Of a stretch of 58,654 nucleotides of DNA, positions 41,865-58,654 are shown in pieces (positions within the stretch are counted from its first letter, which is position 1; the number at the start of each line of letters is the position of its first letter). The DNA comes from Spongiactinospora gelatinilytica (GTDB lineage Bacteria; Actinomycetota; Actinomycetes; Streptosporangiales; Streptosporangiaceae). The translations under genes were made by a program, and so were the position numbers. Location of the stretch: NCBI RefSeq assembly GCF_003236385.1, contig NZ_POUA01000003.1, positions 1 through 58,654 on the forward strand, read 5' to 3'. The notes beneath the pieces were generated by a model that made no database searches, had not been told where the DNA came from, and saw only the letters and a program-made list of their open reading frames with translations.

Positions 41865-43760
41865 TCAGACCGTCCGCCACCGCAGCGGCACGGCCGGCCC
41901 CGCCGTGACCAGGTGCCCCGCGTGCGCGGTGAACGTCGTGCTCACCACGCAGGAATCGCTGCGCGAAAGCGTGCGCCACTCGTCCTCGTCGCCGCCCGGC
42001 GGCAGGCGGGTGTGGATCGCACCGCCCGCGTCCATCGCGTACAGGCGGCCGGTCATGCCGCTGAGCGCGACCGCGTCCGCCGAGGGGCCGATGTCCGCCC
42101 AGGCGCCGCTCGGCGCGTCGGCGAACGCCAGGCAGTACAGCCGTCCCGCCGTGGTCGCCGTGTAGAAGCGGCCGTCGGCGATGGCCAGGGCGACGGTGCC
42201 GGCCGGGGCGCGGCACACGTCGGTCCAGCCGCCGGGGCCCGCGGGCAGCGGCCGGTGGCGCAGCACTCCGCTCGGCGTCACGCCGTACAGGCCGATGCCC
42301 AGGCCGGCCGCGGCCTCCCGGGGCACGTCCAGGCAGCGCACCCCGCCCGCGTCGGCGATCGGCCGCCACGGCAGGTTCTGCCCGCACAGTTCGCGGACGT
42401 GCAGGATGCCGCCCGCGCCCACCCCGAACAGCGACCTGCCGTACCCGGCCAGGGCCACCATGTCGGCCGCCGGGCCGATGACCTCCCACTCGGCGGTGCC
42501 GGCCGGAGCCGACAGCCGGTCGATCACGTTGCGGGTGATCCGGTCCACCACCGGGTCGTCCAGCGCGTTGCCCCAGTTGATCGTGGCGGCGTTGAAGACC
42601 GTGCCGCGCCCGCTGGTGAACACGCCCATGGTGGCCGCGCCACCCTGGCCGTAGGCGCTCCAGTGCCGCAGGTCGGCCGTGGCCAGCACCACGAACGAGG
42701 ACGGCGTGCCGTCCCTGGCGGTCACCCGGGGCACGCCCATGACCTCGGTGTACTCCGCGGCGTCGGTCTCATATCCGAGCGTGCCCTGCCCGAACGGGTC
42801 GCCGTCGGCCAGCCCGGTCCCCTCGAACACCCAGTGCTCGGCGAACCTGACCGTGTAGGACTCCTTGAGGATCAGCGGCATGTACGGCCCCCAGGCCCCC
42901 GCGCCCTGCCGGAAGCTGACACCGGTCAGCGTGTTCTCCGGCCGGTTGACCGGGGCGGCCGACCACTCGGTGGTGATGAGCCGGGGATCGGGGGAGGGGT
43001 CGGTCATCGGGTCGCGGTGGCACACCATGGTGCGCCGGTCGTCCTCCAGCCGGATCTGCCACCAGCAGGTGTTCCCGGCGAAGAACGCGATGTTGCCGCC
43101 CCGCCGGACGAACTCCTCGGCCGCGTCCCGCATGCCCGCCGACCAGTACTCGTCGTGCCCGCTGACGATCAGCAGCCGGTAGCCGTTCAGCAGGTCCAGT
43201 CCGTCGTGCAGGTCCAGGTTGGAGCAGAGGTCCACGGTGTAGCCGGACGGGCGCAGCCAGCGCAGCATGCCCTCCTCCCAGCGTTCGGGCGGCGGCCCGC
43301 CGCCCGGCCGGTCGAAGGTGACCCGGGAGGCCCGGGTGGGCTCCTCGGTCCAGTAGATGCTCTGGCCCGGCTCGCCCGCCCGGTTGTAGGCCTGCCAGGT
43401 GGTGAACGGCACCGACAGCAGTACCGGTGAGCGCGGCACGGCCGGCCGGAGTACGAAGTAGACCTCGTTGGGCGGCGAGGCCGCCGTGCCGGGCAGTTCC
43501 TGCTCCCTGGGCCACGGCAGGTCGGCGTCGGCCTGGCCGGGGGCCAGGAAACGGGCCCGGTACAGCGAGCTGTGCCAGTCCGCGGGGATCGTGAGGGTCC
43601 ACTCGGGGCCGTCCACCCGCGCCGACAGCACCCGCCGGTCATCGGTCGCGTCGGCCACGCTGACCCGTACCGGCAGGTCGGACGGCTCGGCCTGGACGTG
43701 GAAGAGCAGCGATTCGCCGTGCGCACAGGACGTGGCCGCGGCGTACGCGGTCACCGTCAT
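41865..43760 (-). CDS. N,N-dimethylformamidase beta-subunit-like protein with C-terminal beta-propeller
   Basis: 631 aa, no signal peptide. Residues 1 to about 410 match the dimethylformamidase large-subunit-like family: LLIVSGHDEYWSAGMRDA, NIAFFAGNTCWWQIRLEDD and TSGRGTVFNAATINWGNAL. The last 220 residues contain four to five tectonin-like repeats with the pattern W..IG..A..VAL.....LY.....G.L, suggesting a small propeller. ATG 43760 overlaps the stop of the C-domain gene (ATGA), so it is the last gene of the NRPS minus-strand operon. Possible roles are C-N hydrolysis in tailoring or self-protection; this is inferred from family and place only. Confidence 0.8.
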   Translation of the reverse strand: MTVTAYAAATSCAHGESLLFHVQAEPSDLPVRVSVADATDDRRVLSARVDGPEWTLTIPADWHSSLYRARFLAPGQADADLPWPREQELPGTAASPPNEVYFVLRPAVPRSPVLLSVPFTTWQAYNRAGEPGQSIYWTEEPTRASRVTFDRPGGGPPPERWEEGMLRWLRPSGYTVDLCSNLDLHDGLDLLNGYRLLIVSGHDEYWSAGMRDAAEEFVRRGGNIAFFAGNTCWWQIRLEDDRRTMVCHRDPMTDPSPDPRLITTEWSAAPVNRPENTLTGVSFRQGAGAWGPYMPLILKESYTVRFAEHWVFEGTGLADGDPFGQGTLGYETDAAEYTEVMGVPRVTARDGTPSSFVVLATADLRHWSAYGQGGAATMGVFTSGRGTVFNAATINWGNALDDPVVDRITRNVIDRLSAPAGTAEWEVIGPAADMVALAGYGRSLFGVGAGGILHVRELCGQNLPWRPIADAGGVRCLDVPREAAAGLGIGLYGVTPSGVLRHRPLPAGPGGWTDVCRAPAGTVALAIADGRFYTATTAGRLYCLAFADAPSGAWADIGPSADAVALSGMTGRLYAMDAGGAIHTRLPPGGDEDEWRTLSRSDSCVVSTTFTAHAGHLVTAGPAVPLRWRTV

Positions 43761-45091
43761 CCGGCGTGGACCTTCCGCGCCGCGGCCCGTGCGGCCGCCT
43801 CCACCAGCAGGTCCTCCAGCCCGCGCAGCCAGGACTCCATCCCGGCTTTGGGCAGGTAGCGGGTGTCGGCGGTCACCGAGATGCCGAGCCCCGCGCCCTC
43901 GCCGGTGATGTGCACACAGAACCGGCAGTTCAGCCGATCCTGGCTGATCGGCCAGGTGAGCGTGGAGGAGCCGAGCGCGGCGTGGATCTCGCCGGGCTCC
44001 CAGTCGCGCGGCGGCGGCTCGGCGAAGCGCATGTCGTTGAAGCAGCAGTACGGCTGGACCTCGGCGCCCCTGGCGGCGCTCGCCCGCGCGGTCGCCGCCG
44101 CCCGGCCCGCCGGGTCGTGGTAGGCGTGCCGGTAGGCGCGCAGCGCGGCGGGCCTGGCCGCCCGCAGCAGGTCATCGAACCGCTCGGCGGTGACGTCGCA
44201 GACGAACAGGCCCTCCTGGGACAGTGTGGTCACCGCGTTCCTGGTGTCGGCGCGGAACCGGTTGCCCACGATCGGCAGCATCGCGCACAGCTCCTGGCCG
44301 GTGACCCTGCCGACCATGGCGGCGCTCGCCGCGAGCAGTACCGCTCCGGTCGTCGCGCCGTGCAGCACGGCGAGCCGCTGCGCGGCCATGGCGGCGGCCC
44401 GCGAGGTCAGCAGCGCCCGCCAGATCGGCGGCCCGGAAGGTTCGGCGACCTGGGCCGGGAACATCGAGACGGGGATGCGAGAGAACTCCCGCTCCCAGTA
44501 CTCGTCGGCGGCCCGCGCCAGGCGCAGGCCCTCCGCGGAGTTCTGCCGGCGGGCCAGTTCGGCCGGCTGGGTGGGTGGCGGGCCGCCCGCCGTGCCGCGC
44601 AGCAGCAGCAGCAGACGAAGGTCGCGTACCGCGATCTCGGCCCCGAGGCCGTCGGCCGCCATGTGACAGAAGACCAGCACGACATGGCCGACCGTGCCCT
44701 CGCAGATCACCACGCCGACCCGCAGCGGGCGCTCGTCGCGGTAGTCGAAGGCCGATGACTCCATCCGGGCCTGCAACTCGGCGGCGACGGCCGCCTCCTC
44801 CCCGCGCGCCGCGTGGACGATCCCCACCACCGGCTCCGCGCTCTCGCCGACGATCTGCACCGGGCCGGGGCCGATGGTGGTGCGCAGCGCCTGGTGCCGG
44901 TCGGTCAGCAGGCCGACGGCCCGGCGGACGTCCGCGACGCCCAGCTGGCGGATCGAGCGGGGCACCGCGAGCACCCGGCCGAAGTTGAAGTAGCGGTCGT
45001 CGGGCGCGGTGCGTTCGATCGCCGCCCAGATCGCCCGCTGCCCCCAGGTGAGCGGCTCAGTGAGCGGCCCGGTGAGCGGCTCGCCGGTCAC
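43757..45091 (-). CDS. Stand-alone condensation-like domain with altered active site
   Basis: 444 aa, a single NRPS condensation domain. The N-terminal core is LTWGQRAIW. The catalytic HHxxxDG reads CHMAADG: the second (catalytic) His and the DG remain, the first His is Cys. The GTG start shares GTGA with the free PCP stop. It may condense, cyclise or transfer an acyl chain on the adjacent free PCP; an inactive platform role is also possible. Confidence 0.8.
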   Translation of the reverse strand: MTGEPLTGPLTEPLTWGQRAIWAAIERTAPDDRYFNFGRVLAVPRSIRQLGVADVRRAVGLLTDRHQALRTTIGPGPVQIVGESAEPVVGIVHAARGEEAAVAAELQARMESSAFDYRDERPLRVGVVICEGTVGHVVLVFCHMAADGLGAEIAVRDLRLLLLLRGTAGGPPPTQPAELARRQNSAEGLRLARAADEYWEREFSRIPVSMFPAQVAEPSGPPIWRALLTSRAAAMAAQRLAVLHGATTGAVLLAASAAMVGRVTGQELCAMLPIVGNRFRADTRNAVTTLSQEGLFVCDVTAERFDDLLRAARPAALRAYRHAYHDPAGRAAATARASAARGAEVQPYCCFNDMRFAEPPPRDWEPGEIHAALGSSTLTWPISQDRLNCRFCVHITGEGAGLGISVTADTRYLPKAGMESWLRGLEDLLVEAAARAAARKVHAG

Positions 45092-45372
45092 CGGGCCCGC
45101 CCGGTGATGTGGGCGGTGAGCAGGTCCAGGTCCTCGAGCGCGGCCAGCGACTCGTCGGAGAAGTCCACGTCCACGCCGAATTCGCGCTCGATGGCGTCGA
45201 TCAGCCGCATCTGCGCCAGCGAGGTGACGCCGAGCGCCGACAGCGGCAACTCGGTGGCCAGCGCCTCCGCCGCGGAGACCTCGCCGTCGCTGGCCGTGGC
45301 CACCAGTTCGGCCAGTCGTTCCTTCGTCTCGCGCGCGGCGCCCGCCGGGGCACGCCTCCCCACTGTGCTCAC
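45088..45372 (-). CDS. Stand-alone peptidyl/acyl carrier protein
   Basis: 94 aa. The phosphopantetheine attachment Ser is in LSALGVTSLAQMRLIDAIE, and an acidic helix II/III follows (FGVDVDFSDESLAAL). GVTSL is closer to acyl-carrier style than to the GGHSL of the NRPS modules nearby. GTG 45372 begins 1 nt after the MbtH stop. There is no cognate A domain in the gene, so it must be loaded in trans, for example by the AMP-ligase or the dehydrogenase complex. Confidence 0.85.
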   Translation of the reverse strand: MSTVGRRAPAGAARETKERLAELVATASDGEVSAAEALATELPLSALGVTSLAQMRLIDAIEREFGVDVDFSDESLAALEDLDLLTAHITGRAR

Positions 45373-45544: not shown

Positions 45545-48500
45545 TCAGTCCCGCTCCTTCGCAAGGCGCGCGGCCTCCTCGTCGGTCAGTCGGTCGATCT
45601 CGGCCGTCAGCAGGTCCGTGACGGCCTGGGCGAGGTCCGCGACGGCGCCGGCGGCGAAGATCGTGCGGATCGGCACCTCGACCTCGGTCAGCGCCCGGAT
45701 GCCCGCGATCACCCGGGTGGCCAGCAGCGAGTGGCCGCCGAGCGCGAAGAAGTCGTCGTGCGCGCCGACCTTCTCCAGGCCGAGGACCTCGGCGTACACG
45801 TCGGCGACCAGCTCTTCGGCGTCGGTGCGCGGCGGCACGTAGGCGGTGCTCTCGGGCACCGGGCGGGCGTCGCCGGGCAGCGCGGCGCGGTCCACCTTGC
45901 CGTTCGGGGTCAGTGGCAGCGCCTCGGCCCGCACGAACGCGCCCGGCACCATGTACGGCGGCAGCGTGGCCGCCGCGTGCGTTCGCAACTCCGCCACCGG
46001 GGCGTCGCCGACGACGAACGCCACCAGCGTCTCCTCCTGGACCACCACGACCGACTGCCGAACGCCGGGGTGGGCGTCCAGCACGGCCTCGATCTCGCCG
46101 GGCTCGATCCGGTGGCCGCGCAGTTTGACCTGGTGGTCGGTACGGCCGAGGCAGTCCAGGGTGCCGTCGGCGCGGCGGCGGGCCAGGTCGCCGGTGCGGT
46201 ACAGGCGGGCGCCCGGCGGGCCGTACGGGTCGGGGACGAACCGGTCGGCGGTCAGCCCGGGGCGGCGCAGGTAGCCGTCCGCCACGCCCGCCCCGCCGAT
46301 CAGCAGCTCACCGGGGACACCGATGGGGGCCGGCCGGCCGTGCCGGTCCACGACGTGGCAGGTGGTGTTGGCGATCGGCCGGCCGATGGCGACGTCGCCG
46401 GGCGCGTCCGGCACCTGCCAGGCGGTGGACCAGATCGTGGTCTCGGTCGGGCCGTACATGTTGAACAGCCGCCGCGCGTTCGGCCGCAGTTCGGCGGCCA
46501 GCGCGGGCGGCAGCGGCTCGCCGCCGGCCAGGGCCGTGTCCACGCGCAGGCCCGGCAGCATCCGCCAGCCGGACGGTGTGGCCTGTACGTGCGTGACGCC
46601 GTGCCGGGCCGCGAGCGCGGCCACGGCATCGCCGTCGCGGGCGTCGATCCCGCCCGCCATGACCACCCTGCCGCCGGTGACCAGCGGGAGGAACAGTTCC
46701 AGTGCGGAGATGTCGAAGGACAGCGAGGTCAGCGCGAGCCAGGTGTCGCCGGGGCCGCCGTCCAGCAGCGTCCGCATGGCGAGCAGGAAGTTGGTCAGCG
46801 CCCGGTGCGGCACGACGACGCCCTTGGGCCGCCCGGTGGACCCGGAGGTGTAGATCACGTAGGCGGGGTCCTCCGGGCGCGCGCCGAGGGTCTCGCACGT
46901 GGCGCCGGGCACGGCGAGCCGCCGTACGTCCTCGTCGGTGAGCACTCGGGCGACCTGCGCGTCCTCCAGCAGGTACGCCACGCGGGTCGCCGGATAGTCC
47001 GGATCGACCGGCAGGTACGCCGCCCCGCTCATCGCCACGCCGAGCAGCGCCACCGGCGTCTCCGGCCCGCGTCCCGTGATGATCGCCACGAGGTCGCCGC
47101 GGCCGATGCCGTCCTCGGCCAGCCTGGCGGCGAGGCCCGCCGCCCGCGCGGCGAGTTCGGCGTAGGTCAGCTCGCCCTCGTCGTGGACGACGGCCACGGC
47201 GTCCGGCGTGGCGGCGGCGTGGTTCAGCATCAGCCCGACGACCGTGACCGGCGGCAGGTCGGCGGCGGTGTCGTTGCACGCGCCGAGCAGCAGGTCGCGT
47301 TCGGCGCGGGGGAGCAGCGGGAGCGTGGAGACCGGCCGCCGAGGATCCTCCGCGACGGCTTCCAGCAGCACCAGGTAGCGAGCGGTCATCCGCTCGACGG
47401 TGCCCTGGTCGAACAGGTCCGTGCTGAAGATGGCGTGGCCGGTCAGGGCTCCGTCGTCGCGGGGATAGAGGTCCATCGACAGGTCGAACCTGGCCGGGTG
47501 CCAGCCGTGCGGGACCGGCGCCGCGGTCAGGCCGGGCAGCGGGTCCCCGGTGTCGCCGTGGGTGTGGACCGCGAACATGGTCTGGAACAGCGGTGTCCTG
47601 CTCAGGTCGCGGTCCAGGCCGAGCGCGCCGACCAGTCGTTCAAAGGGCACCTCACGGTGCGCGAGCGCGGCCAGGACGCCTCTCCGTGTCCTGGCCAGCA
47701 GCTCGGCGAACACCGGATCGCCCGACAGGTCGGCGCGCAGCGCGAGGGTGGTGGAGAACATCCCGATCAGGTTCTCCACCTCGGGGCGGTCCCGCCCGGC
47801 CGCCGGGGTGCCGACGCAGAAGTCGTCCTGCCCGCTGTGACGGGCCAGCAGCACCTGGTAGGCGGCCAGCAGCACCATGTACGGCGTGCAGCGCTCCCGC
47901 CTGGCCAGCCGGTTGACCGCGGCGGACAGGCCGGGCGGAATCTCGAAGATCACCTCTCCGCCCGAAGGGGTCCGGACGGCGGGCCGGGGGCGGTCGGCGG
48001 GCAGGTCCAGCGAAGGCGTGCCGGCCAGCCGTCCGGCCCACCAGGAGACGTCGGTGTCCTGCTCCCGCTCGGCCCGCACGTGGTCGGCGTAGCGCAGCGG
48101 CAGTTCCTCCAGCGTGCCGCCGGCGTACAGCTCGGCCACCTCGCGGCGCAGCACGTTGATGGACCAGCCGTCGGCGTTGATGTGGTGCAGCACCACGCAG
48201 AGGACGTGGTCGTCGGCGGCCAGGCGGATCAGCGTGACCCGCAGCGGTGGCCGCGCGGCCAGGTCGAAGGCGGTGTTGGTGCGGTCGGCGACGATGGCCA
48301 GCGCGGCGCGTACGCCGTCCGCGTCCACCCGCTCGATCTCCACGAGGGCGGGCGGCTCGATGACCGCCGTGGGCCTGCCGTCCTCCGCCTCGGGGTAGCG
48401 GGTGCGCAGTGGCTCATGCCGGGCCACGACCTCGGTGAACGCGGCCTGGAGCCGGGTGGTGTCGAGCCCGCCACGCAGCCGGTAGGCGTAGTGCGTCGTG

Positions 48501-48577
48501 TAGGAGGGGTCCTGCGGGTCGAGGCGGTGCAGGAACCACAGTCTCTCCTGGCCGAACGACAGCGGGCCGCTAGTCAC
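45545..48577 (-). CDS. Nonribosomal peptide synthetase, C-A-PCP
   Basis: 1,010 aa single module. C domain at about 1-430 with intact HHINADG at 131-137. A domain at about 450-860 with YTSGSTGRPKG, NMYGPTE and the NGKVDR lysine. PCP near 935-1,005 with DDFFALGGHSLLA. No thioesterase. Aligning by eye to GrsA, the ten-residue code reads D-I-L-Q-A-A-M-I-W-K, closest to the glycine-type code DILQLGLIWK. The C domain at the start means it extends an acyl or peptidyl chain. GTG 48577 has GGGAG 8 nt upstream. First gene of the minus arm; operator-like site E lies just upstream. Confidence 0.94.
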   Translation of the reverse strand: MTSGPLSFGQERLWFLHRLDPQDPSYTTHYAYRLRGGLDTTRLQAAFTEVVARHEPLRTRYPEAEDGRPTAVIEPPALVEIERVDADGVRAALAIVADRTNTAFDLAARPPLRVTLIRLAADDHVLCVVLHHINADGWSINVLRREVAELYAGGTLEELPLRYADHVRAEREQDTDVSWWAGRLAGTPSLDLPADRPRPAVRTPSGGEVIFEIPPGLSAAVNRLARRERCTPYMVLLAAYQVLLARHSGQDDFCVGTPAAGRDRPEVENLIGMFSTTLALRADLSGDPVFAELLARTRRGVLAALAHREVPFERLVGALGLDRDLSRTPLFQTMFAVHTHGDTGDPLPGLTAAPVPHGWHPARFDLSMDLYPRDDGALTGHAIFSTDLFDQGTVERMTARYLVLLEAVAEDPRRPVSTLPLLPRAERDLLLGACNDTAADLPPVTVVGLMLNHAAATPDAVAVVHDEGELTYAELAARAAGLAARLAEDGIGRGDLVAIITGRGPETPVALLGVAMSGAAYLPVDPDYPATRVAYLLEDAQVARVLTDEDVRRLAVPGATCETLGARPEDPAYVIYTSGSTGRPKGVVVPHRALTNFLLAMRTLLDGGPGDTWLALTSLSFDISALELFLPLVTGGRVVMAGGIDARDGDAVAALAARHGVTHVQATPSGWRMLPGLRVDTALAGGEPLPPALAAELRPNARRLFNMYGPTETTIWSTAWQVPDAPGDVAIGRPIANTTCHVVDRHGRPAPIGVPGELLIGGAGVADGYLRRPGLTADRFVPDPYGPPGARLYRTGDLARRRADGTLDCLGRTDHQVKLRGHRIEPGEIEAVLDAHPGVRQSVVVVQEETLVAFVVGDAPVAELRTHAAATLPPYMVPGAFVRAEALPLTPNGKVDRAALPGDARPVPESTAYVPPRTDAEELVADVYAEVLGLEKVGAHDDFFALGGHSLLATRVIAGIRALTEVEVPIRTIFAAGAVADLAQAVTDLLTAEIDRLTDEEAARLAKERD

Positions 48578-48628: not shown

Positions 48629-48744
48629 CTGTTTCCGGCTGGGGCCCAGTGTTCCACGGGCTTCGCGGCTGCCGCAAGCCCTGTCTCACAAGGGGTTGCG
48701 GCTCTCCGGAGCCCATGTAAAACTGTCGATCTCGCCGAAAAGGA

Positions 48745-48778
48745 AAGGTTTCTTTCCAGAAAGAAACCTTACTATTCC
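48745..48778. promoter_or_regulatory. Operator-like site D and promoter of the plus-strand NRPS operon
   Basis: A perfect palindrome with 12-bp arms AAGGTTTCTTTC / GAAAGAAACCTT and a 2-nt spacer (48745-48770), followed directly by the -10-like TACTAT (48770-48775). AAGAAACCTTACTA matches site B at 13 of 14 bases. Binding here should occlude the promoter. The AMP-ligase start lies 65 bp downstream of TACTAT. Confidence 0.65.
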
Positions 48779-48839
48779 GCTTCGCGCAACAGTCAAGACG
48801 GTGTTGACAGATGGCTACGTGACGCCCGGGGGCTCACCC

Positions 48840-50276
48840 ATGAGTGCGATCTCCAACCTCACCATTCCCGACCTTCTCCATGCCCGCGCTCAGGCCGACC
48901 CCGAGCGGGAGGCGCTGATCGTCCACGGAGGCGGCAGCGGCGCGTTCGGCGCCCGCCCGGGCTCGCTCACCTTCGCCGAATGGGACCGCGGCGCCGCCGA
49001 GGTGGCCCGCGGCCTGGCCGGCCGCGGCGTCGGCCGCGGCGACCGCGTCGGACTGGTCTTCGGAAACGGCGACTGGATCGACTACGCGGTGGCCTTCTGC
49101 GGGGTGACCGCCGCCGGGGCAGTGGCCGTACCGCTGTCGGACCGGCTGGCCGAAGCCGAGATCGACGCGGCGCTCGCGCACTGCGGCGCGGCGACCGTGC
49201 TGCGGCCCGGCGACCTGCCGCTCGGCGGCGGCGCCGAGCCGAAGGCCGCGCGTCCCGGCGACGTCGCGCAGATCCTGCTGACCTCCGGCACCACCGGCCG
49301 GCCCAAGGGCGTGGCCGCCACGCACGCCAACCTCACCTTCGGCCACGGCGGGCGCAGGCGGCCGTTCGCCCACTCCGCCCACCTCGCGCACGCCTTCCCG
49401 ATCGGCACCAACGCCGGGCAGACCATGCTGGTCACCGCCCTGTCCGCGCACCCGGCCACGGTCACCCTGCCCCGCTTCACGCCGGGGAGATTCGCGGCAC
49501 TGATCGAGGAGTACCACGCGGGCACGGTGTTCCTCGTGCCCGCCATGGCGGTCGAACTGCTCGCCGCGGGTGTGCAGGACCGCCACGACCTGTCGTGCGT
49601 GCGCCTGCTCGGCTCGGCCGCCGCGCCGCTGCCCGCCCCGGTCGCCGAACGGCTGTGCACCGCCTTCCCGCGCGCCGCCATCGTCAACTACTACACCTCG
49701 ACCGAGTCCTACCCGGCCCAGACGATCATGATGTACGACCCCGATCGCCCCGGCAGCGTCGGCCAGGCCGTCGGCGGCGGCACCGTCAAGATCGCCACCG
49801 CGGCCGGGGAGCCGGTGCCCGCCGGCGTGACCGGCGAGGTGTGGCTGCGCTCGCCGGCCGCCCCGCGCGCCTACTGGGCCGACGAGCGGGGCAGTCGCGA
49901 GGTGTTCCGCGACGGCTGGGTGCGGATGGGCGACCTCGGGCGGCTCGACGAGGAGGGCTACCTCTACCTGGTGGACCGCGAGAGCGATGTGATCAAGTCG
50001 GGCGCGTTCAAGGTCTCCACCCTGCACGTGGAGGAGACCGCGCACGAGTGCCCCGGGGTCCGCGAGGCCGCCGCGTTCGGCGTGCCGCACCCCACGCTCG
50101 GCATGTCCGTCGCGCTCGCCCTCGTCGGCTCGGTGACCCCACAGGAACTGCGGCTCTTCCTCGCCGACCGGCTCGCCCCGCATGAACGTCCCGCCCGGGT
50201 CGTCCTGATGGACGCCCTCCCCAGAAACCACGCGGGCAAGGTGGACAAGCGCCTCCTGCGAGAAGGAGCACGATGA
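48840..50276 (+). CDS. AMP-dependent acyl/aryl ligase (stand-alone adenylation enzyme)
   Basis: 478 aa ANL-family enzyme. Core motifs are ILLTSGTTGRPKGVAATHANL, the adenine motif NYYTSTESYPAQ, the hinge WVRMGDLGRLDEEGYLYLVDR and the catalytic Lys in NHAGKVDK. The pocket does not give an amino-acid code; a fatty, aryl or other carboxylate is more likely. ATG 48840 has GGGGG upstream; the frame is open to 48696 but that stretch holds the operator. The stop overlaps the C-PCP start (ATGA), suggesting it loads the PCP of the next protein or the free PCP. Confidence 0.88.
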   Translation: MSAISNLTIPDLLHARAQADPEREALIVHGGGSGAFGARPGSLTFAEWDRGAAEVARGLAGRGVGRGDRVGLVFGNGDWIDYAVAFCGVTAAGAVAVPLSDRLAEAEIDAALAHCGAATVLRPGDLPLGGGAEPKAARPGDVAQILLTSGTTGRPKGVAATHANLTFGHGGRRRPFAHSAHLAHAFPIGTNAGQTMLVTALSAHPATVTLPRFTPGRFAALIEEYHAGTVFLVPAMAVELLAAGVQDRHDLSCVRLLGSAAAPLPAPVAERLCTAFPRAAIVNYYTSTESYPAQTIMMYDPDRPGSVGQAVGGGTVKIATAAGEPVPAGVTGEVWLRSPAAPRAYWADERGSREVFRDGWVRMGDLGRLDEEGYLYLVDRESDVIKSGAFKVSTLHVEETAHECPGVREAAAFGVPHPTLGMSVALALVGSVTPQELRLFLADRLAPHERPARVVLMDALPRNHAGKVDKRLLREGAR

Positions 50277-51748
50277 TCGGCACGACGACCGTGGACGCGG
50301 TCCAGCACGGCATGTGGATCAACGAACGGCTGGGCGCGGGCTCGGCCTACCACGTGCCCGTGGTGGTCAGGCTGCGCGGCCCGCTCGACCGGGGCGCGCT
50401 GATCAGGGCGTGCGCGGCCGTGCTGGAACGGCACCCGGTGCTGTCCGGGCGCGTCGAGGAGGACGACGGCGTGCCGTACCTGCGGAGCGGCGACGCCCCC
50501 GTGGAGGTCGCCCACATCGCCGCCGAGGGCGAGGCGCTGAGCGAGATCCTGCGCCGGGAGGTGGTGCGGCCGTTCGACCTCGCGGCGGGGCCGCTGGTCC
50601 GCTTCACCATGGTCGGCGAGTCACCGCTGCGGCACCTGCTGCTCGTCGTGGCCCACCACCTCGTCTTCGACGGCAGGTCCAAGGATCTGCTGGTCGCCGA
50701 GCTGGCCGCGGCCTACGGCGGCGCCCGGCCGCCGGTGTTTCCGGTGCCCGAGGTGTCGGGCTCGGACGCCGAGCCCGCCCCCGGCTTCTGGGACACGCGC
50801 TGGCGCGAACCGGGCCCGGTCGCGCTGCCCGGCGTGCCGGGGCGCTCCCGGGGCACCGCCCCGGGCCGTACCGTCGCCTTCGAGACCGACACCGATTTCG
50901 CGATCCCCGGGCTGACCAGGTTCGAGGTCCTCACCGCCGCCCTGCACGCGCTGCTGCGTTCCTACGGCAACCAGGACGTCGTCACCGCGATCGACCTGAG
51001 CACCCGCCGCCCCGGCGACGCCGCGGTGATCGGGTCGTTCGTCAACGAGTTGCCGCTGTTCAGCCGCCCCGAGGCGGGCATGCCGTTCGCGGACTTCGCC
51101 GCCGGGCTGCGCGCCGAACTCCGTGCGCTCTACGCCCACCGGCACCTCCCGCTCGCCCGCGCGGTGCCCGGCCTGCGCCCGCACGCGGCGCTCGCGCCGG
51201 TCTCGATCAGCTACCGCAGGCGCGAGGAGCCCGAACCGGACTTCGCCGGGCTCGACGCGTCGGTCGAATGGCTGGCCGCCAACCACGCGGTCAGGGGATC
51301 GCTCCAACTGCAGTTCCTGGACACCGCGGGCGGCCTGACCGGCTCGCTGCGGTACGACCCCGAGGAGGTCCCCGATGCGGGGACGGTCGCCGGGGACCTG
51401 GTGGCGCTGCTGGACCGGGTGGCCGCCGCCCCGGACGCGCCGCTGTCCAAGCTGCTGGACATCCGCGCCGCGCACGTGGCCGAAGCCGTTTCCGCCGCTC
51501 CGGTGACCGAAGCGCCCGCCGAGGTGGACGACCCGCTCGTGGGCGAGGTCGCCGGGATCTGGGAGGAGGTCCTGGGCATCTCGCCGATCGGTCCGCACGA
51601 CGACATCTTCGACCTGGGCGCGCACTCGCTGACCATCACCCAGATCATCGCCAGAATGCGCAAGCGGCTGAAGCTGGAGGTGCCGCTGGACGCCTTCTTC
51701 GAGACGCCGACCATCGCCGGGGTGCTCCAGGCGGTCCGCAATGACTGA
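50273..51748 (+). CDS. NRPS condensation-PCP didomain protein
   Basis: 491 aa. The C domain with AHHLVFDG (HHxxxDG intact) occupies about 1-400. The PCP with DDIFDLGAHSLTITQI occupies about 415-490. No A domain, so its carrier must be loaded in trans. Overlaps the AMP-ligase gene by 4 bp and the E1alpha gene by 8 bp. The coupling to both neighbours makes the ligase or the dehydrogenase complex its likely loading partner. Confidence 0.9.
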   Translation: MIGTTTVDAVQHGMWINERLGAGSAYHVPVVVRLRGPLDRGALIRACAAVLERHPVLSGRVEEDDGVPYLRSGDAPVEVAHIAAEGEALSEILRREVVRPFDLAAGPLVRFTMVGESPLRHLLLVVAHHLVFDGRSKDLLVAELAAAYGGARPPVFPVPEVSGSDAEPAPGFWDTRWREPGPVALPGVPGRSRGTAPGRTVAFETDTDFAIPGLTRFEVLTAALHALLRSYGNQDVVTAIDLSTRRPGDAAVIGSFVNELPLFSRPEAGMPFADFAAGLRAELRALYAHRHLPLARAVPGLRPHAALAPVSISYRRREEPEPDFAGLDASVEWLAANHAVRGSLQLQFLDTAGGLTGSLRYDPEEVPDAGTVAGDLVALLDRVAAAPDAPLSKLLDIRAAHVAEAVSAAPVTEAPAEVDDPLVGEVAGIWEEVLGISPIGPHDDIFDLGAHSLTITQIIARMRKRLKLEVPLDAFFETPTIAGVLQAVRND

Positions 51749-52679
51749 CCTGCTCGACCGGCCGCCGGGCGGCCTGCCGTACCCCGGCGGCGACGGCGAC
51801 GACCTCGAACTGATGCTGATGATCCGGGCGTTCGAGTACAAGCTGCTCGACCTGTTCGCCGCCGGGATGCTCAACGGCACCACGCACACCTGCCTCGGGC
51901 AGGAGCACGTGCCGGTCGCGCTGTCCCCGCTGATGGACCCGCGCGACCACGTCTTCAGCAACCACCGGGGCCACGGCCACTACCTGGCCAGGTACCGCGA
52001 CCCGCACGGCCTGCTCGCCGAGATCATGGGCCGGGAGGGCGCGGTCTGCGGGGGAGTGGGCGGCAGCCAGCACATCCACCGCGACCGGTACATGTCCACC
52101 GGCGTGCAGGGGGAGAGCCTGCCGGTCGCGGCTGGCGTCGCGCTGCACCTCTCGCGCGCCGAGCCGGGCGCCGCGGCCTGGGCCTACATCGGCGACGGCA
52201 CGTTCGGCGAGGGCGCGGTCTACGAGGCGCTGAACATCGCGGCGCTGTGGCGGCTGCCGGTCGTGGTCGTGGTGGAGAACAACGGCATCGCCCAGTCCAC
52301 GCCCACGAGCGCGCACCTGGCCGGGACGATCGCCGGGCGGGCCGCCGCCTTCGGCGTTCCGCACCTCGCGATCGGCTCCACCGACCCCGCGGAGATCCGC
52401 GACATCGTCGCCGGACCGCTGGGGCACGTACGGGCCGGGCGCGGGCCGCTGGTGCTGGAGTTCCGCACCCATCGGCTCGGCCCGCACAGCAAGGGCGACG
52501 ACACACGCGATGAACAGGCGCTGCGCGAGGCCCGCGCGGGCGACTGGTACCACCGTTACGCCGCGGCCGACCCCGCCGGGCTGGCCAGGGTGGAGTCCGA
52601 GCAGCGCGCGTACGTGGCGGCGGTGGCCGACGAGGTCGCCGCCCGCCCGCCGTCCACCGGGCGGGCCGCGTGCGGGTAG
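51741..52679 (+). CDS. 2-oxoacid dehydrogenase E1 component, alpha subunit
   Basis: 312 aa thiamine-diphosphate enzyme. The TPP/Mg motif runs from IGDGTFGEG to VVENN (GDG-x-NN), with RGHGHYLAR upstream. Together with E1beta it decarboxylates a 2-oxoacid and transfers the acyl group to lipoyl-E2. The ATG is within the end of the C-PCP gene. It resembles PDH/acetoin-dehydrogenase E1alpha in length. The substrate cannot be read from the sequence. Confidence 0.93.
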   Translation: MTDLLDRPPGGLPYPGGDGDDLELMLMIRAFEYKLLDLFAAGMLNGTTHTCLGQEHVPVALSPLMDPRDHVFSNHRGHGHYLARYRDPHGLLAEIMGREGAVCGGVGGSQHIHRDRYMSTGVQGESLPVAAGVALHLSRAEPGAAAWAYIGDGTFGEGAVYEALNIAALWRLPVVVVVENNGIAQSTPTSAHLAGTIAGRAAAFGVPHLAIGSTDPAEIRDIVAGPLGHVRAGRGPLVLEFRTHRLGPHSKGDDTRDEQALREARAGDWYHRYAAADPAGLARVESEQRAYVAAVADEVAARPPSTGRAACG

Positions 52680-53653
52680 CCGACAACCTCAACGCGGCGC
52701 TGCACGACCTGCTCGACCGCGACCCCCGGGCCTACCTGCTCGGAGAGGACATCACCGACCAGTACGGCGGCGCCTTCAAGATCTCCCGTGGCCTGTCCGA
52801 GCGCTTCCCCGGCCGGGTGCTGTCCACCCCGATCAGCGAGGGCGCGCTCACCGGCATGGCCGCCGGGCTCGCCCTGGCCGGGGACACCGCCATCGCCGAG
52901 ATCATGTTCGGCGACTTCGTCACCCTCGCCTTCGACCAGCTCGTCAACTTCGCCGCCAAGTCGGTGACCATGTACGGCAAGCGGCTGCCGCTGCGCATGG
53001 TCGTGCGCTGCCCCAGCGGCGGCGGGCGCGGATACGGCCCCACGCACAGCCAGAGCCCGCAAAAACACCTGCTCGGCGTGCCCGGCCTGGCGATCTACGA
53101 GGTCTCGCCGTTCCATGACAACCACGCCGTGTTCGGCGCGATGCTGGACCGCGGCGAACCCTGCGTGCTGTTCGAGGACAAGGTCCTCTACACCCGCCCG
53201 ATGTACCCGGCGGCCGAGCCGTTCCGGCTGACCCCGCCCGAGACCCCGGACGGCTTCGCGCGCGTCGCCCTTCCCGGCGGCGACCCCGACTGCGTGATCA
53301 TCGCCACCGGCGGCACCGCCCACAAGGCGCTCGCCGCGATGCGCGCGCTGCTGCTGGAGGACGAGATCACCGCCGCCCTCCTGGTGCCGTCGCGCCTGTA
53401 TCCCTTCGACTTCCCCGCGGCGATCGGCGCGGCGAACACCGTGTTCGTGGTCGAGGAGAGCACGGCGGGCGGCACGTGGGGCGCGGAGGTCGCGCACGTA
53501 CTGCACGGCCGCATGTGGGACCGCCTGGCCCGGCCCGTGCAACTGGTCCACTCCGCGGACTCCATCATTCCCACCGCCGCCCACCTCGAAGAACGCGTGC
53601 TGGTCAGCGAATCGTCGATCCACCGAGCCATCAGAAAGGCCCTCCGTGGCTGA
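52670..53653 (+). CDS. 2-oxoacid dehydrogenase E1 component, beta subunit
   Basis: 327 aa. The N-terminal pyrimidine-binding region is YLLGEDITDQYGGAFKISRGL, with FPGRVLSTPISEGALTGMAAGLA and RCPSGGGRGYGPTHSQS, and a transketolase C-terminal domain (VFVVEESTAGGTWGAEVA). GTG 52670 overlaps the alpha gene by 10 bp, and the end overlaps E2 by 8 bp. No E3 (dihydrolipoyl dehydrogenase) gene is present in the window; a housekeeping E3 could serve. Confidence 0.93.
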   Translation: MRVADNLNAALHDLLDRDPRAYLLGEDITDQYGGAFKISRGLSERFPGRVLSTPISEGALTGMAAGLALAGDTAIAEIMFGDFVTLAFDQLVNFAAKSVTMYGKRLPLRMVVRCPSGGGRGYGPTHSQSPQKHLLGVPGLAIYEVSPFHDNHAVFGAMLDRGEPCVLFEDKVLYTRPMYPAAEPFRLTPPETPDGFARVALPGGDPDCVIIATGGTAHKALAAMRALLLEDEITAALLVPSRLYPFDFPAAIGAANTVFVVEESTAGGTWGAEVAHVLHGRMWDRLARPVQLVHSADSIIPTAAHLEERVLVSESSIHRAIRKALRG

Positions 53654-54740
53654 CATCCGCGTCCCCAAGCTGAACAACAACGACGCCGAGTACCTCCTGG
53701 TCGAATGGCTCGTCGAGGACGGCGCGCCGATCCGCTCCGGCGACCCCATGGTGATCGTGGAGACCTCCAAGGCGGCCGAGGAGCTGACCGCCGAGGAGTC
53801 CGGCCACCTGCACCACGGCGTGCCGGCGGGCACGTGGTGCCGGCCCGCCCAGTCCATCGCGCACATCACCGCCTCGGCCGCCGCTCCGGCGCGGCGGGAG
53901 CCGGCCGCGGTACCCGGGCCCGCCGTACCCGAGGCGGACGGCCCGCTCATCACCGAACCGGCGCGGGCCCTGATGAACGAAATGGGCATCACCGAGGACG
54001 CGGTCCGCGCGCTCGGCGTCGCGGTCGTGCGGCGGACCGACGTCGAACGGCTCGCCGTGCCCCCCGCCCGGCCCGCCGACACCCTTGGCCCGGCGGGCGG
54101 GAAGCGCCGCCCGCTGTCGCGTGTGCAGCGGGCGGTCGGCCGCGCCGTCGAGACCTCGCACCAGACCATCCCCGCCGCCTACACCGCCGTGCGGATGGAC
54201 CTCGGGCCGCTGCTGGCCCGCGCCACCCGCCTGACCAGGGAGACCCGCCGGCCGGTGGGCCTCGCCGAGCTGTTCGTGATGGCGGTCGCCGAGACCTACG
54301 CCGACCACCCGATGTTCTTCGCCACCCTCACCCCGGACGGCACCGCCGCCGACATCCCCGACGCGCCGCACATCGGCGTCACCGTGGACGCGGGGGAGGG
54401 CCTGTACGTTCCGGTGGTCCACGACGCCGCCAGGATGGGCGTCAAGGAGCTGGCCACGCTGCTGATGAAGTACCGGGTGGCCGCCGCGGGCGGCGAGTTC
54501 ACCGAGCGGGAGCTGAGCGGCGCCGGCATGGTGATCACCCTGCACACCGAGCCCGACGTCGTGCTCGCCATCCCCTACGTGCTGCCCGGCACGGCCTGCG
54601 CGCTCGCGGTCACCCCGCCCTCGGACGGCACCCGCGCGACCATCGGCATCGCCTACGACCACCGGCTGATCAACGGCCGGGACGCCGCGCTCTACATGGG
54701 CCGCCTCAAGCAGATCATCGAGACTCCGGAGACCGCGTGA
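53646..54740 (+). CDS. 2-oxoacid dehydrogenase E2 component (dihydrolipoyl acyltransferase)
   Basis: 364 aa. One lipoyl domain at 1-75 with the attachment Lys42 in ETSKAAEEL, then an Ala/Pro linker, a peripheral-subunit-binding domain (ITEPARALMNEMGITEDAV) and an acyltransferase domain. The active-site signature reads DHRLING: the catalytic His is kept but the Asp of the usual DHRxxDG is Asn. The stop overlaps the start of the terminal NRPS gene (GTGA), placing acyl-thioester chemistry directly within the peptide operon. Confidence 0.9.
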   Translation: MADIRVPKLNNNDAEYLLVEWLVEDGAPIRSGDPMVIVETSKAAEELTAEESGHLHHGVPAGTWCRPAQSIAHITASAAAPARREPAAVPGPAVPEADGPLITEPARALMNEMGITEDAVRALGVAVVRRTDVERLAVPPARPADTLGPAGGKRRPLSRVQRAVGRAVETSHQTIPAAYTAVRMDLGPLLARATRLTRETRRPVGLAELFVMAVAETYADHPMFFATLTPDGTAADIPDAPHIGVTVDAGEGLYVPVVHDAARMGVKELATLLMKYRVAAAGGEFTERELSGAGMVITLHTEPDVVLAIPYVLPGTACALAVTPPSDGTRATIGIAYDHRLINGRDAALYMGRLKQIIETPETA

Positions 54741-57700
54741 CCACCCTCTCGCCGGACAAGAAGGCCCTGCTCGCGCAGCGGCTGCGGCGGCGTACCCGGG
54801 CGCGGGTCATCACCCCCCGCGACCCTGACACGCAGCCGCCGCTGACGCCCGCCCAGGAGCGGCTGTGGTTCCTGGAGCAGTACCGGCCGGGTACCACCGC
54901 CTACACGATCCCGCTGGTCGTGCGCGTACAGGGCGAGCTGACCGGCCCCCGCGTCGCGGCCGCCCTGGCCGGGGTCGCCGCCCGGCACGAGGCGCTGCGG
55001 ATGCGCTTTCCCACCGACGGCGAGGGGCGGCCCCGCGTCGTGATCGACCCCGAGCCCCGGGTCGAGCTGACCGTCTTGGAGCTCCCCGGCGAGGACGCGG
55101 CCCGCGCGGCGGGCACGGCGCTGCTCGCCCGCACCTTCGGCCTGGAGTCCGGGCCGCTGTGGCGGGCGGCGCTGGTGACGATCGCGCCCGGCGACCACCT
55201 GCTGGTGCTGGCCGTCCACCACCTGGTGGCGGACGGCTGGTCGGCGGACCTGATCCTTCGCGAGGTGCTGACGCTGTGCGGCGGGGACGCCGAGCCGGAG
55301 CCGCCGGGGGCGCAGTACGGCGACTACGCGCTGTGGGAACGCGGCAGGGACCACGACGGCGAACTGACCTACTGGCGCGAACGGCTGGCCGGGCTGCCCG
55401 CCCTGGACCTGCCCACCGACCTGCCGCGGCCCGCCGAGCAGAGCAGCGCCGGGGCCGGGCACGAGTTCCACATCGACGCCGCGCTGACCGGGCGGATCGC
55501 CGCCCTCGCCGCCGAGTGCGGGGCCACGCCGTACATGGTGCTGCTGGCCGCGTTGCAGGTGCTGCTGGCCAGGCACAGCGGGCAGGCCGACTTCGCGGTC
55601 GGCTCGCCGGTCGCCGGGCGTGACGTGCCCGAACTCGACGGCGCGGTCGGCATGTTCGTCAACACCCTGGTGCTGCGCGCCGACCTGGCCGGCGACCCGT
55701 CGTTCCGCGACCTGCTGGCGCGCACCAGGGAGACCGCGCTGGACGCCTACGCCCACCAGGCCCTGCCCTTCGATCGGCTGGTCGGCGACCTGAACGTGGC
55801 CCGCGACGTGAGCCGCACGCCGCTGTTCCAGGTGATGTTCGCGCTGCAGAACTACGGGGCCGCCGCCGCGGCGCCGGTCGGCGGATACTCCGTGACCGGG
55901 GTGACGCTGCCGCCCGCCGCGTCCCGTTTCGACCTGTCGTTCTACCTGCACGAGACGCCGGACGGCCTGAGCGGTTACGTCATCTACAACAGCGACCTGT
56001 TCCTGCCCGGCACGATCGAGCGGATGGCCGCGCGCTACGCCAGGCTGCTGCGGTCCATCGCCGACGCGCCGCAGACCCCGCTCTCCCGGCTGGACCTGCT
56101 CACCGCCGAGGAACGGGCGGCGCTCGACCGCTTCAGCCTGCCCGCGGAACCGCTCCCCGAGCCCGCCGGGTCACTGCCGGAACTGATCGCCGCGCAGGCC
56201 GCCGCCACCCCGGACACCACCGCGATCGTCTGCGGCGGGGAGAGCCTGACCTACGCCGAACTCGACCTGCGGACCGGGCGGCTCGCCGCCCACCTGCGCG
56301 CCGCGGGCGTCGGTCCCGACGTGCGGGTGGGCGTCTGCCTGGACCAGTCCGCAGACCTCGCCGTCGCCGTGCTGGGCGTACTTCGGGCGGGCGGCGCGTA
56401 CATCCCGATCGACCCCGCCTATCCGCGCGACCGGATCGGCTACATGCTCCAGGACGCCGACGCCCGGGCCGTGATCACCGTCCCCGAGCACACGGACCTC
56501 CTCACCGGCCAGGTGATCCTGATCGGCGACGTCCCCGCCGACCTCGATCCGCTCCCCGTGCGGAGCGCGTCGCCGGAGGACCTGGCGTACGTGATCTACA
56601 CCTCCGGGACCACCGGGCGGCCCAAGGGCGTCGGCATCCAGCACCGCCAGGTGGTCAACTACCTGGCGGGCGTACGGCAGCGGCTCGGCGTGCCCGAGGG
56701 CGCGGACTTCACTCTGGCGCAGTCGCTGTCGTTCGACTTCGGCGTGACGATCTTCTACCTGGCCCTGCTCACCGGCGGCCGGCTGCACCTGGTCTCGCCC
56801 CGCACCCCCGCCGTCGAACTGGCCGAACGCTTCAGCCGCACCGACTACCTGAAGATCACCCCGTCCCACCTGGCGTCCCTTCAGGCGGAGGCCCCCGAGG
56901 CGGACCTGCTGCCGCGGCGCACGCTGATCCTCGGCGGCGAGGCGTCGCGCGCCGACTGGGCCGCCGGCCTCACCGCCTCGTGCGGGGTCGTCAACCACTA
57001 CGGGCCCACCGAGGCGACCGTCGGCATCACCACGTACGCCGTCCCGAGTACGCCGGGCGTGGGCGGCATGCTGCCCATCGGCCGCCCGCTGCCCGGGGCC
57101 CGGGTCTACGTACTGGACGAGAACTTCGCGCCCGCCCCCATCGGCGTGCCCGGCGAGGTCTACCTGGGCGGCGACCGGCTGGCCCGCGGCTACCTCGGCC
57201 GCCCCGCACTCACCGCCGAGCGGTTCCTGCCCGACCCGTTCGGCGAGCCCGGCGCGCGGATGTACCGCACCGGCGACATCGGCCGCTGGTCGCCCGAGGG
57301 CGACCTGCACTTCCTCGGCCGCCGCGACCTCCAGGTCAAGGTGCGCGGGTACCGCGTCGAGCTCGCCGAGATCGAGGCCGTGCTCGAAGACCTCCCCGGC
57401 ATCGACCAGGCGGTCGTGGAGGCCCGCGCCGACCGGCTGGTCGCCTACCTGGTCGGGGCCGCGACGAACGTCGGCGACCTGCGCTCCGACCTCGCCGGCA
57501 GACTGCCCGACTACATGGTCCCCGCCCGCTACGTGTGGCTGGACGAACTCCCGCTGAAGTCGCACGGCAAGGTGGACCGCGCCGCGCTGCCCGACCCGGG
57601 CGACGAGCGCCCCGACCAGGAGACCGGCTTCGTGGAGCCGGAGACGCCGCTGGAGGAGGCGGTCGCCGGGATCTGGGCGGGGGTGCTGGGGCTGGCGCGG

Positions 57701-58654
57701 GTCGGCGTCCTGGACGACTTCTTCGACCTCGGCGGGCACTCGCTGCTCGCGGCCCAGCTCGTCACCCGGCTGCGGCACGCCGTACCGCCGGGCGGACGCC
57801 AGCCCACCATCCTGGACGTCTTCAAGCACCCCACCGTGCGGCGGCTGGCCAAGGTCATGGAGGCGGGCGCGGCGGGCGCGTCCGATCGGCTGCTGCACCG
57901 GCTCACCCCCGCCGGACGGCGGGTCGCGGCGACGGCGGTGTGCGTGCCGTACGGCGGCGGCAGCGCGGTCATCTACCAGCCGCTCGCCGACGCCCTGCCG
58001 GACGACTGGGACCTGTACTCCGTCGCGGTCCCCGGCAACGAACTGGGCGAAACCGCCCGGCCCTCGGCCGAGGTCGCCGAACAGTGCGCCACGGAGATCC
58101 TGGAGTCGGTGCGGGGGCCGATCGTGCTGTACGGGCACTGCGGCCTCGGCGTCACCCTCACCGTCGAGGTCGCCCGCAGGCTGGAGGCGGCCGGACGCGA
58201 GGTCGAGGCGGTCTACCTGGGCGGGATCTTCCCGTTCTCCCGCCCGGCCGGTCCGCTGGCACGGCTCGCGACCCGGATGGACCGGCTGCGCAGCGACCGC
58301 TTCTGGGCCAACGCCCTGCGCGCCTCCGGCCTTGACGTGGACGAACTCGCCCCCGACCAGCTCAAGCTGATCATCGAGAACCGCCGCCAGAGCACGCGCG
58401 AGGCCGAGGAGTACTTCGCCCGCCTCTTCCGCGAGGGAATGCCACCGCTGCGTGCCCCGGTCATCTCGGTGGCGGGCGAGCGGGACCCGGCCATGGAGTT
58501 CCACCAGGAGCGCTACCCGGAGTGGCACCTGATCGCCTCCACCGTGGGCCTGGTCGTCCTGGACGAGGCCAACCACTTCTTCCTCAAATACCGAGCGACC
58601 GAGCTGGCCGCCATCCTCACCACCGTCCACCCCTCCCTCCCCACCGGCACCCTC
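54737..58654 (+). CDS. Nonribosomal peptide synthetase, C-A-PCP-TE, 3'-partial
   Basis: At least 1,306 aa; no stop before the window edge. C domain with VHHLVADG near 160, A domain with YTSGTTGRPKG near 620 and NHYGPTE, PCP with DDFFDLGGHSLLA near 1,000, and a thioesterase-like alpha/beta hydrolase from about 1,060. The eye-aligned A-domain code is D-F-T-K-L-L-H-V-G-K, nearest to Asp/Asn-type codes (DLTK...). The TE nucleophile motif is GHCGLG, so Cys1135 replaces the usual Ser; Asp1250 (GERDP) and His1280 (EANHFF) complete the triad. Coupled to E2. Likely the releasing module, unless more domains follow off the edge. Confidence 0.93.
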   Translation, partial: MTTLSPDKKALLAQRLRRRTRARVITPRDPDTQPPLTPAQERLWFLEQYRPGTTAYTIPLVVRVQGELTGPRVAAALAGVAARHEALRMRFPTDGEGRPRVVIDPEPRVELTVLELPGEDAARAAGTALLARTFGLESGPLWRAALVTIAPGDHLLVLAVHHLVADGWSADLILREVLTLCGGDAEPEPPGAQYGDYALWERGRDHDGELTYWRERLAGLPALDLPTDLPRPAEQSSAGAGHEFHIDAALTGRIAALAAECGATPYMVLLAALQVLLARHSGQADFAVGSPVAGRDVPELDGAVGMFVNTLVLRADLAGDPSFRDLLARTRETALDAYAHQALPFDRLVGDLNVARDVSRTPLFQVMFALQNYGAAAAAPVGGYSVTGVTLPPAASRFDLSFYLHETPDGLSGYVIYNSDLFLPGTIERMAARYARLLRSIADAPQTPLSRLDLLTAEERAALDRFSLPAEPLPEPAGSLPELIAAQAAATPDTTAIVCGGESLTYAELDLRTGRLAAHLRAAGVGPDVRVGVCLDQSADLAVAVLGVLRAGGAYIPIDPAYPRDRIGYMLQDADARAVITVPEHTDLLTGQVILIGDVPADLDPLPVRSASPEDLAYVIYTSGTTGRPKGVGIQHRQVVNYLAGVRQRLGVPEGADFTLAQSLSFDFGVTIFYLALLTGGRLHLVSPRTPAVELAERFSRTDYLKITPSHLASLQAEAPEADLLPRRTLILGGEASRADWAAGLTASCGVVNHYGPTEATVGITTYAVPSTPGVGGMLPIGRPLPGARVYVLDENFAPAPIGVPGEVYLGGDRLARGYLGRPALTAERFLPDPFGEPGARMYRTGDIGRWSPEGDLHFLGRRDLQVKVRGYRVELAEIEAVLEDLPGIDQAVVEARADRLVAYLVGAATNVGDLRSDLAGRLPDYMVPARYVWLDELPLKSHGKVDRAALPDPGDERPDQETGFVEPETPLEEAVAGIWAGVLGLARVGVLDDFFDLGGHSLLAAQLVTRLRHAVPPGGRQPTILDVFKHPTVRRLAKVMEAGAAGASDRLLHRLTPAGRRVAATAVCVPYGGGSAVIYQPLADALPDDWDLYSVAVPGNELGETARPSAEVAEQCATEILESVRGPIVLYGHCGLGVTLTVEVARRLEAAGREVEAVYLGGIFPFSRPAGPLARLATRMDRLRSDRFWANALRASGLDVDELAPDQLKLIIENRRQSTREAEEYFARLFREGMPPLRAPVISVAGERDPAMEFHQERYPEWHLIASTVGLVVLDEANHFFLKYRATELAAILTTVHPSLPTGTL

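Follow-up and report, generated by a model that had tools for sequence, protein, structure and literature searches.

The window, by which we mean the whole stretch of DNA analysed, was one whole contig of 58,654 bases. A biosynthetic cluster was located from about 41.9 kb to the contig end, and its features are listed in Table 1. The last gene encodes a peptide synthetase (NRPS) for which Pfam gave the domain order Condensation, AMP-binding, PP-binding and Thioesterase (C-A-T-TE). Its reading frame reaches the contig end without a stop. Residues of this protein were numbered from the GTG at 54737. GTDB genomes were scanned with the window thioesterase (TE), which yielded 58 related loci at 50 to 97% identity.

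Table 1. Features of the cluster and of the NRPS gene at the contig end.
Feature	Position	Strand	Basis and remarks
N,N-dimethylformamidase beta-like (DMFA2-like) protein	41865..43760	-	PF20254
Stand-alone condensation-like protein	43757..45091	-	PF00668, 56.6 bits
Stand-alone carrier protein	45088..45372	-	PF00550
C-A-T NRPS module	45545..48577	-	Pfam; code by eye D-I-L-Q-L-G-M-I-W
Acyl-AMP ligase	48696..50276	+	PF00501 + PF13193; start uncertain
C-T didomain without adenylation domain	50273..51748	+	Pfam
E1 alpha-like subunit	51741..52679	+	NCBIfam TIGR03182, 180 bits, below cut-off of 394
E1 beta-like subunit	52670..53653	+	NCBIfam NF006667, 146 bits, below cut-off of 321
E2-like lipoyl/2-oxoacid acyltransferase	53646..54740	+	PF00198 + PF00364
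NRPS gene, C-A-T-TE	54737..58654	+	Pfam; GTG start; 3' end missing at contig end
Condensation domain (residues 35-463)	54839..56125	+	PF00668, 334 bits
Adenylation domain	56189..57571	+	PF00501 + PF13193
Thiolation (peptidyl carrier) domain	57659..57853	+	PF00550
TE domain with Cys nucleophile	57938..58615	+	PF00975; best match ObiF1
Cys1135, nucleophile	58139..58141	+	codon TGC; aligns with ObiF1 Cys1146
Gly1163, replaces usual Asp at position I	58223..58225	+	aligns with ObiF1 Gly1173
Asp1250, position II	58484..58486	+	codon GAC; aligns with ObiF1 Asp1254
His1280	58574..58576	+	codon CAC; aligns with ObiF1 His1284

The ligase, C-T, E1 alpha, E1 beta and E2 genes were found all together in 29 of the 58 loci, within the fetched flanks. 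In the window, the E1 alpha, E1 beta and lipoyl-E2 genes (51741-54740) sit inside the peptide synthetase cluster, and the E2 motif reads HRLING where HRxxDG is usual. This E1/E2 set may serve to charge a carrier domain with an acyl unit. The adenylation code of the C-A-T module on the minus strand is presumably Gly-like.

The minus-strand genes for the carrier, the stand-alone condensation protein and the DMFA2-like protein stand in a row (41865-45372). A DMFA2-like gene lay near 12 of the 58 loci, and a VanX/D-Ala-D-Ala dipeptidase-like gene was seen near the DMFA2-like gene in ten loci (L038-L044, L047, L060 and L061; about 15.4-16.5 kb). A separate condensation-like gene was present near 24 of the 58 loci. 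Between 32713 and 41831 the window encodes two regulators of the ROK type, and a gene of glycosyl hydrolase family 3 lies in the same interval along with genes resembling sugar ABC transporters. Comparable ABC and ROK genes are found beside some of the relatives.

Active site and nearest relatives of the thioesterase

The bases at 58133-58141 read GGG CAC TGC (Gly-His-Cys) and lie within TAC GGG CAC TGC GGC CTC GGC, which encodes YGHCGLG. The initial annotation had proposed a Cys nucleophile in this motif, followed by Asp1250 and His1280; the codons agree for all three residues and the Cys was recovered in all 58 related loci. Position I, where Asp usually stands, is occupied by Gly. The Cys, this Gly, the Asp and the His were invariant in 58 of 58 loci, and the Cys was kept throughout an alignment whose identity to the window drops as low as 50%. 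The Cys-Asp-His triad looks functional, because none of its three residues varies among these loci. Canonical EntF-like type I TEs have a Ser nucleophile and Asp at position I, where the window has Cys1135 and Gly1163. Type II (editing) TEs are stand-alone Ser proteins, and the window has a Cys TE inside an NRPS.

A structural model of the TE was prepared (mean pLDDT 84.3) and compared with solved structures. The nearest was ObiF1 (Z 28.4, rmsd 2.6, 241 aligned residues, about 30% identity), followed by the SulM TE (Z 27.0, rmsd 2.6, 236 aligned residues, 20% identity). Type II TEs came next in the list, with Z of 22.6 or less. A sequence profile search also placed ObiF1 first (E 4.5e-39); by sequence the type II TE BorB (2.4e-22) outranks SulM (1.7e-17). 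These results support a genuine alpha/beta-hydrolase TE with a Cys triad, whose nearest solved relatives by predicted fold, ObiF1 and SulM, are Cys TEs that form strained rings.

ObiF and ObiF1 (obafluorin, a beta-lactone) share with the window TE the Cys nucleophile, an Asp on a later strand, a Gly where Asp usually stands, an RYxxW-type motif after the catalytic Asp and the C-A-T-TE module. In the accessible text of PMC6668435, ObiF1 Cys1146, Gly1173, Asp1254 and His1284 were probed by mutation, and the C1146S variant yielded the hydrolysed product (acid) only. According to the same text, the ObiF TE is followed by an MbtH-like domain, plus an aryl-A domain in P. fluorescens. The window's relatives, in contrast, run into an MFS exporter at this point in 58 of 58 loci, and the ten genes scanned in the window's cluster include no transaldolase.

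SulM (sulfazecin, a monobactam with a beta-lactam ring) likewise has a Cys nucleophile and Asp at position II. The terminal A domain of SulM-type systems activates 2,3-diaminopropionate; the terminal code of the window is presumably Asp-like. The accessible text of PMC11298585 gives a Gln-Cys-Asn motif as the mark of a SulM-type TE; the window motif is His-Cys-Gly, and family scans of its ten cluster genes returned no sulfotransferase. Assignment as a SulM-type monobactam TE was rejected, as both the motif and the sulfotransferase are absent. The type II TEs RifR and BorB resemble the window TE in fold and in the position of the Asp but are stand-alone, use a Ser nucleophile and fall on another branch of the tree described below.

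The fused exporter and its distribution

The TE had been described in the initial annotation as terminal. This reading was rejected, since in all 58 related loci the same frame runs on for 435-737 aa beyond the TE, into an MFS transporter; the window is cut by the contig end. A conventional TE further downstream in the same protein, which had been named as a possible alternative site of release, was not found in the relatives, where the transporter takes this place instead. A profile of the post-TE part matched 58 of 58 loci. Pfam MFS_1 and MFS_3 exceeded their cut-offs in the five loci scanned (of the 58) and in three of three second-clade proteins; in these eight fused proteins, all relatives of the window, MFS_1 scored 57-112 bits against a cut-off of 33.4. 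Transporter motif A was matched by pattern in 57 of 58 loci, and the remaining one (L004) is one residue off the pattern yet reads GAVADRFDRRR. The nearest NCBIfam families were the TIGR00900 H+ antiporters, the Mef macrolide pumps and the enterobactin exporter EntS, all below cut-off (197.9 bits against 319.6 for TIGR00900); unlike these, the transporter here is fused to a peptide synthetase. An AlphaFold2 model of the carrier-TE-linker-MFS segment of L005 (mean pLDDT 77.9, pTM 0.58) had a disordered linker and a helical part that matches MFS structures. A phmmer search of the MFS part against the PDB returned 0 matches.

We searched the 957 contigs of the window's assembly for the MFS part of its own gene without finding it; one search gave best matches of 25-28% identity and another gave only weak partial matches. 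The window TE is 97% identical to that of L004, which continues into an MFS part, and for this reason we infer that the full window gene has the C-A-T-TE(Cys)-MFS architecture seen in the relatives. The same motif and the same fusion were present in two plasmid-collection records, from S. clavuligerus and Embleya. An apparent variant with the MFS part inside the synthetase and an A domain after it (L179) was dropped; its frame stops after the MFS part and the A domain is a separate overlapping frame.

In one locus (L175, genome G533) an unfused MFS of the same family adjoins E1/E2 genes, which supports a role of the MFS part as exporter of the product. The same locus has an ORF that by eye resembles a flavin-dependent halogenase. 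The MFS part ends in a conserved C-terminal tail with [LV]PDA (for example in L005); a longer pattern fits 62 of the 81 complete proteins, and [LV]PDA is present in the 19 others as well. This tail is possibly a docking element. Within the otherwise variable TE-MFS linker, a Trp-Trp motif was seen in 53 of 88 distinct fused proteins.

Epsilon-poly-L-lysine synthetase likewise combines peptide synthesis and membrane-spanning parts in a single polypeptide, but these parts are not known to be an MFS transporter and the enzyme is not known to have a TE. Among the papers listed by an open-access literature search, none was on an NRPS-MFS fusion. The words "MFS", "transporter", "exporter" and "efflux" do not occur in the accessible text of a review of unusual NRPSs.

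A TE profile was run against all loci retrieved, among them 79 additional matches from the family. This census gave 249 matches, 207 of them distinct; one of the distinct ones is the window, where the contig ends before any MFS part. MFS-fused TEs made up 178 of the distinct matches. Asp and His were kept in all 178, position I was Gly in 150 and Ala in 28, and the nucleophile was Cys in 177. A sequencing error or lone mutation as the source of the Cys was rejected, as the residue is shared by these 177 TEs and by all 58 related loci. The sole Ser among the fused TEs (L164/L197, genome G439) lies in GHSSVG with codon AGC, and the terminal adenylation code of this protein differs too (D-T-E-D-type). 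Since one fused TE has Ser, the Cys is not strictly required by the fused architecture. Without an MFS part there were seven distinct Cys TEs (L064, L065, L074, L080, L126, L127 and L128) and 21 other matches, which carry Ser, mostly in an S-M-G or S-L-G setting as in type II TEs, apart from L129, whose nucleophile was unreadable.

A phylogeny with Ser and Cys TEs had been proposed as a check, and a maximum-likelihood tree was made from 118 distinct TEs. The window was counted as fused, rows were removed if they shared an identical core or if their nucleophile could not be read, and L164 was outside the tree. The MFS-fused TEs formed one clade (89 rows, support 98/92), with a single change to fusion in 99% of bootstrap trees, and the type II Ser TEs were separate (100/100). 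The sister of the fused clade was ObiF1 with L126 and L127, weakly supported (94/73) and with long branches flagged. Four Ser TEs nest among Cys rows, so the tree implies more than one Ser/Cys exchange. L126 and L127 (L148, L149), which group with ObiF1, are C-A-T-TE proteins that have GQC at the elbow and lack an MFS part; they are further candidates for strained-ring TEs.

Fused TEs occur commonly in the window's family and seldom outside it. Of 297 family genomes sampled, 156 matched at E of 1e-15 or less, in 39 of 68 genera, a threshold that also lets in type II TEs. About 120 of the 297 (count by eye) had a best match of 4.4e-58 or less, the range in which inspected loci are fused. The statement in the initial annotation that Cys thioesterases are rare is not supported by this count. 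In a phylum-wide sample, 9 of 396 genomes matched at 1e-15 and none of these was fused except the window's own genome. At 1e-60, a class-wide search with the MFS part matched 23 of 394 genomes. Six had at least four matches each, and a few of these matches sit in short frames and are unfused.

Terminal residue, release and alternatives

The terminal adenylation code of the window was read by eye as D-F-T-K-I-G-H-V-G. By motif anchors, D-F-T-K-[I/L/V/M]-G-H-V-G was recovered in 49 of the 58 loci and D-F-L-K-x-A-S-V-A in seven; the remaining two have a code that is presumably Ser-like, and the D-F-T-K-type code is presumably Asp-like. A TauD/TfdA hydroxylase gene was present at the stop of the fused gene in seven of the 58 loci (L051-L057; about 80 bases after it in L057), all of a subclade other than the window's. 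TauD genes also occurred near the non-fused TEs L073, L075, L128 and L135. In the accessible part of a review (PMC8949500), TauD domains are described as always adjoining Asp-selective A domains and acting on the tethered residue. In the window, the ten genes of the cluster that were examined include no hydroxylase or transaldolase, nor anything else that would plainly supply a beta-hydroxyl group. TauD matches in the window's genome lay on other contigs only.

From the domain order, the conserved triad and the in-frame MFS part of the relatives, all directly observed, we infer the following steps of release, ring closure and export, and we give this reading about an even chance. The TE would serve for release in a peptide synthetase with an exporter of its own, in the order C-A-T-TE(Cys)-MFS. 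The acyl-peptidyl chain would pass from the carrier to Cys1135 and be held there as a thioester, not an oxoester. This thioester would then be attacked from within the chain, most likely by a nucleophile of the last residue (Asp-type or hydroxylated), and a small ring would close, as in ObiF. The tethered MFS, a 12-helix transporter of drug-antiporter type, would take over the product and pump it out. Export by a tethered transporter would reduce the contact of a reactive product with the cytoplasm.

A beta-lactone is our best guess for the subclade with a TauD hydroxylase and for the subclade with a Ser-type adenylation code; the adjacent TauD gene in seven loci fits such a product. Strained-ring chemistry in the window's own cluster may be conjectured only, because this cluster encodes no hydroxylase. 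For the window's subclade, a different closure is possible, and a serious rival is hydrolysis or the closure of a larger ring.

Taken for the whole group, this rival holds that the Cys TE is a hydrolase or larger-ring cyclase and that it yields a linear or macrocyclic peptide of the ordinary kind, which the fused MFS just exports. Most members have no obvious beta-nucleophile, because the terminal code is Asp-like in 49 of 58 loci and TauD is linked in seven others only, and a Ser form (L164) exists within the fused clade. We nevertheless consider it somewhat unlikely, as both of the nearest solved structures, ObiF1 and SulM, close four-membered rings. Plain hydrolysis is further opposed by the long conservation of the Cys, because the C1146S exchange turned ObiF into a hydrolase (accessible text of PMC6668435).

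It is improbable that the TE edits or transfers in the manner of type II enzymes while release is left to another component, such as the stand-alone condensation protein (43757-45091). The triad layout of the TE is that of RifR and other type II TEs, which come right after SulM in the structure list, and a separate condensation-like gene recurs near 24 of the 58 loci; however, in the whole proteins scanned the TE sits immediately behind the last carrier domain, and the type II TEs are a separate Ser group in the tree. Neutral drift to a Cys without functional meaning, in a partly degenerate TE, has the one Ser case of the fused clade (L164) in its favour but is very improbable given Cys in 177 and Asp and His in all of the 178 distinct fused TEs, and a Cys that stays invariant although identity to the window falls to 50%.

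Implications for the Streptosporangiaceae

Strained rings are drug warheads. If the fused clade makes such rings as ObiF1 and SulM do, its 177 distinct Cys TEs would be many new candidates. The fusion also offers a way to test whether a reactive product is channelled, in its producers, from the synthase into the exporter, and the natural Ser variant in the clade, with its changed terminal adenylation code, provides a built-in comparison.

We tentatively propose, with less than even confidence, that these proteins are a large unrecognised class of assembly lines in which a reactive small-ring peptide would be released by a Cys TE and transferred directly to a covalently fused exporter. Several such lines would be present per genome across the Streptosporangiaceae, with the ring and the terminal residue varying between paralogues. 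The architecture of the encoded proteins suggests that members of the Streptosporangiaceae make, release and export a small, possibly reactive peptide with one giant protein.
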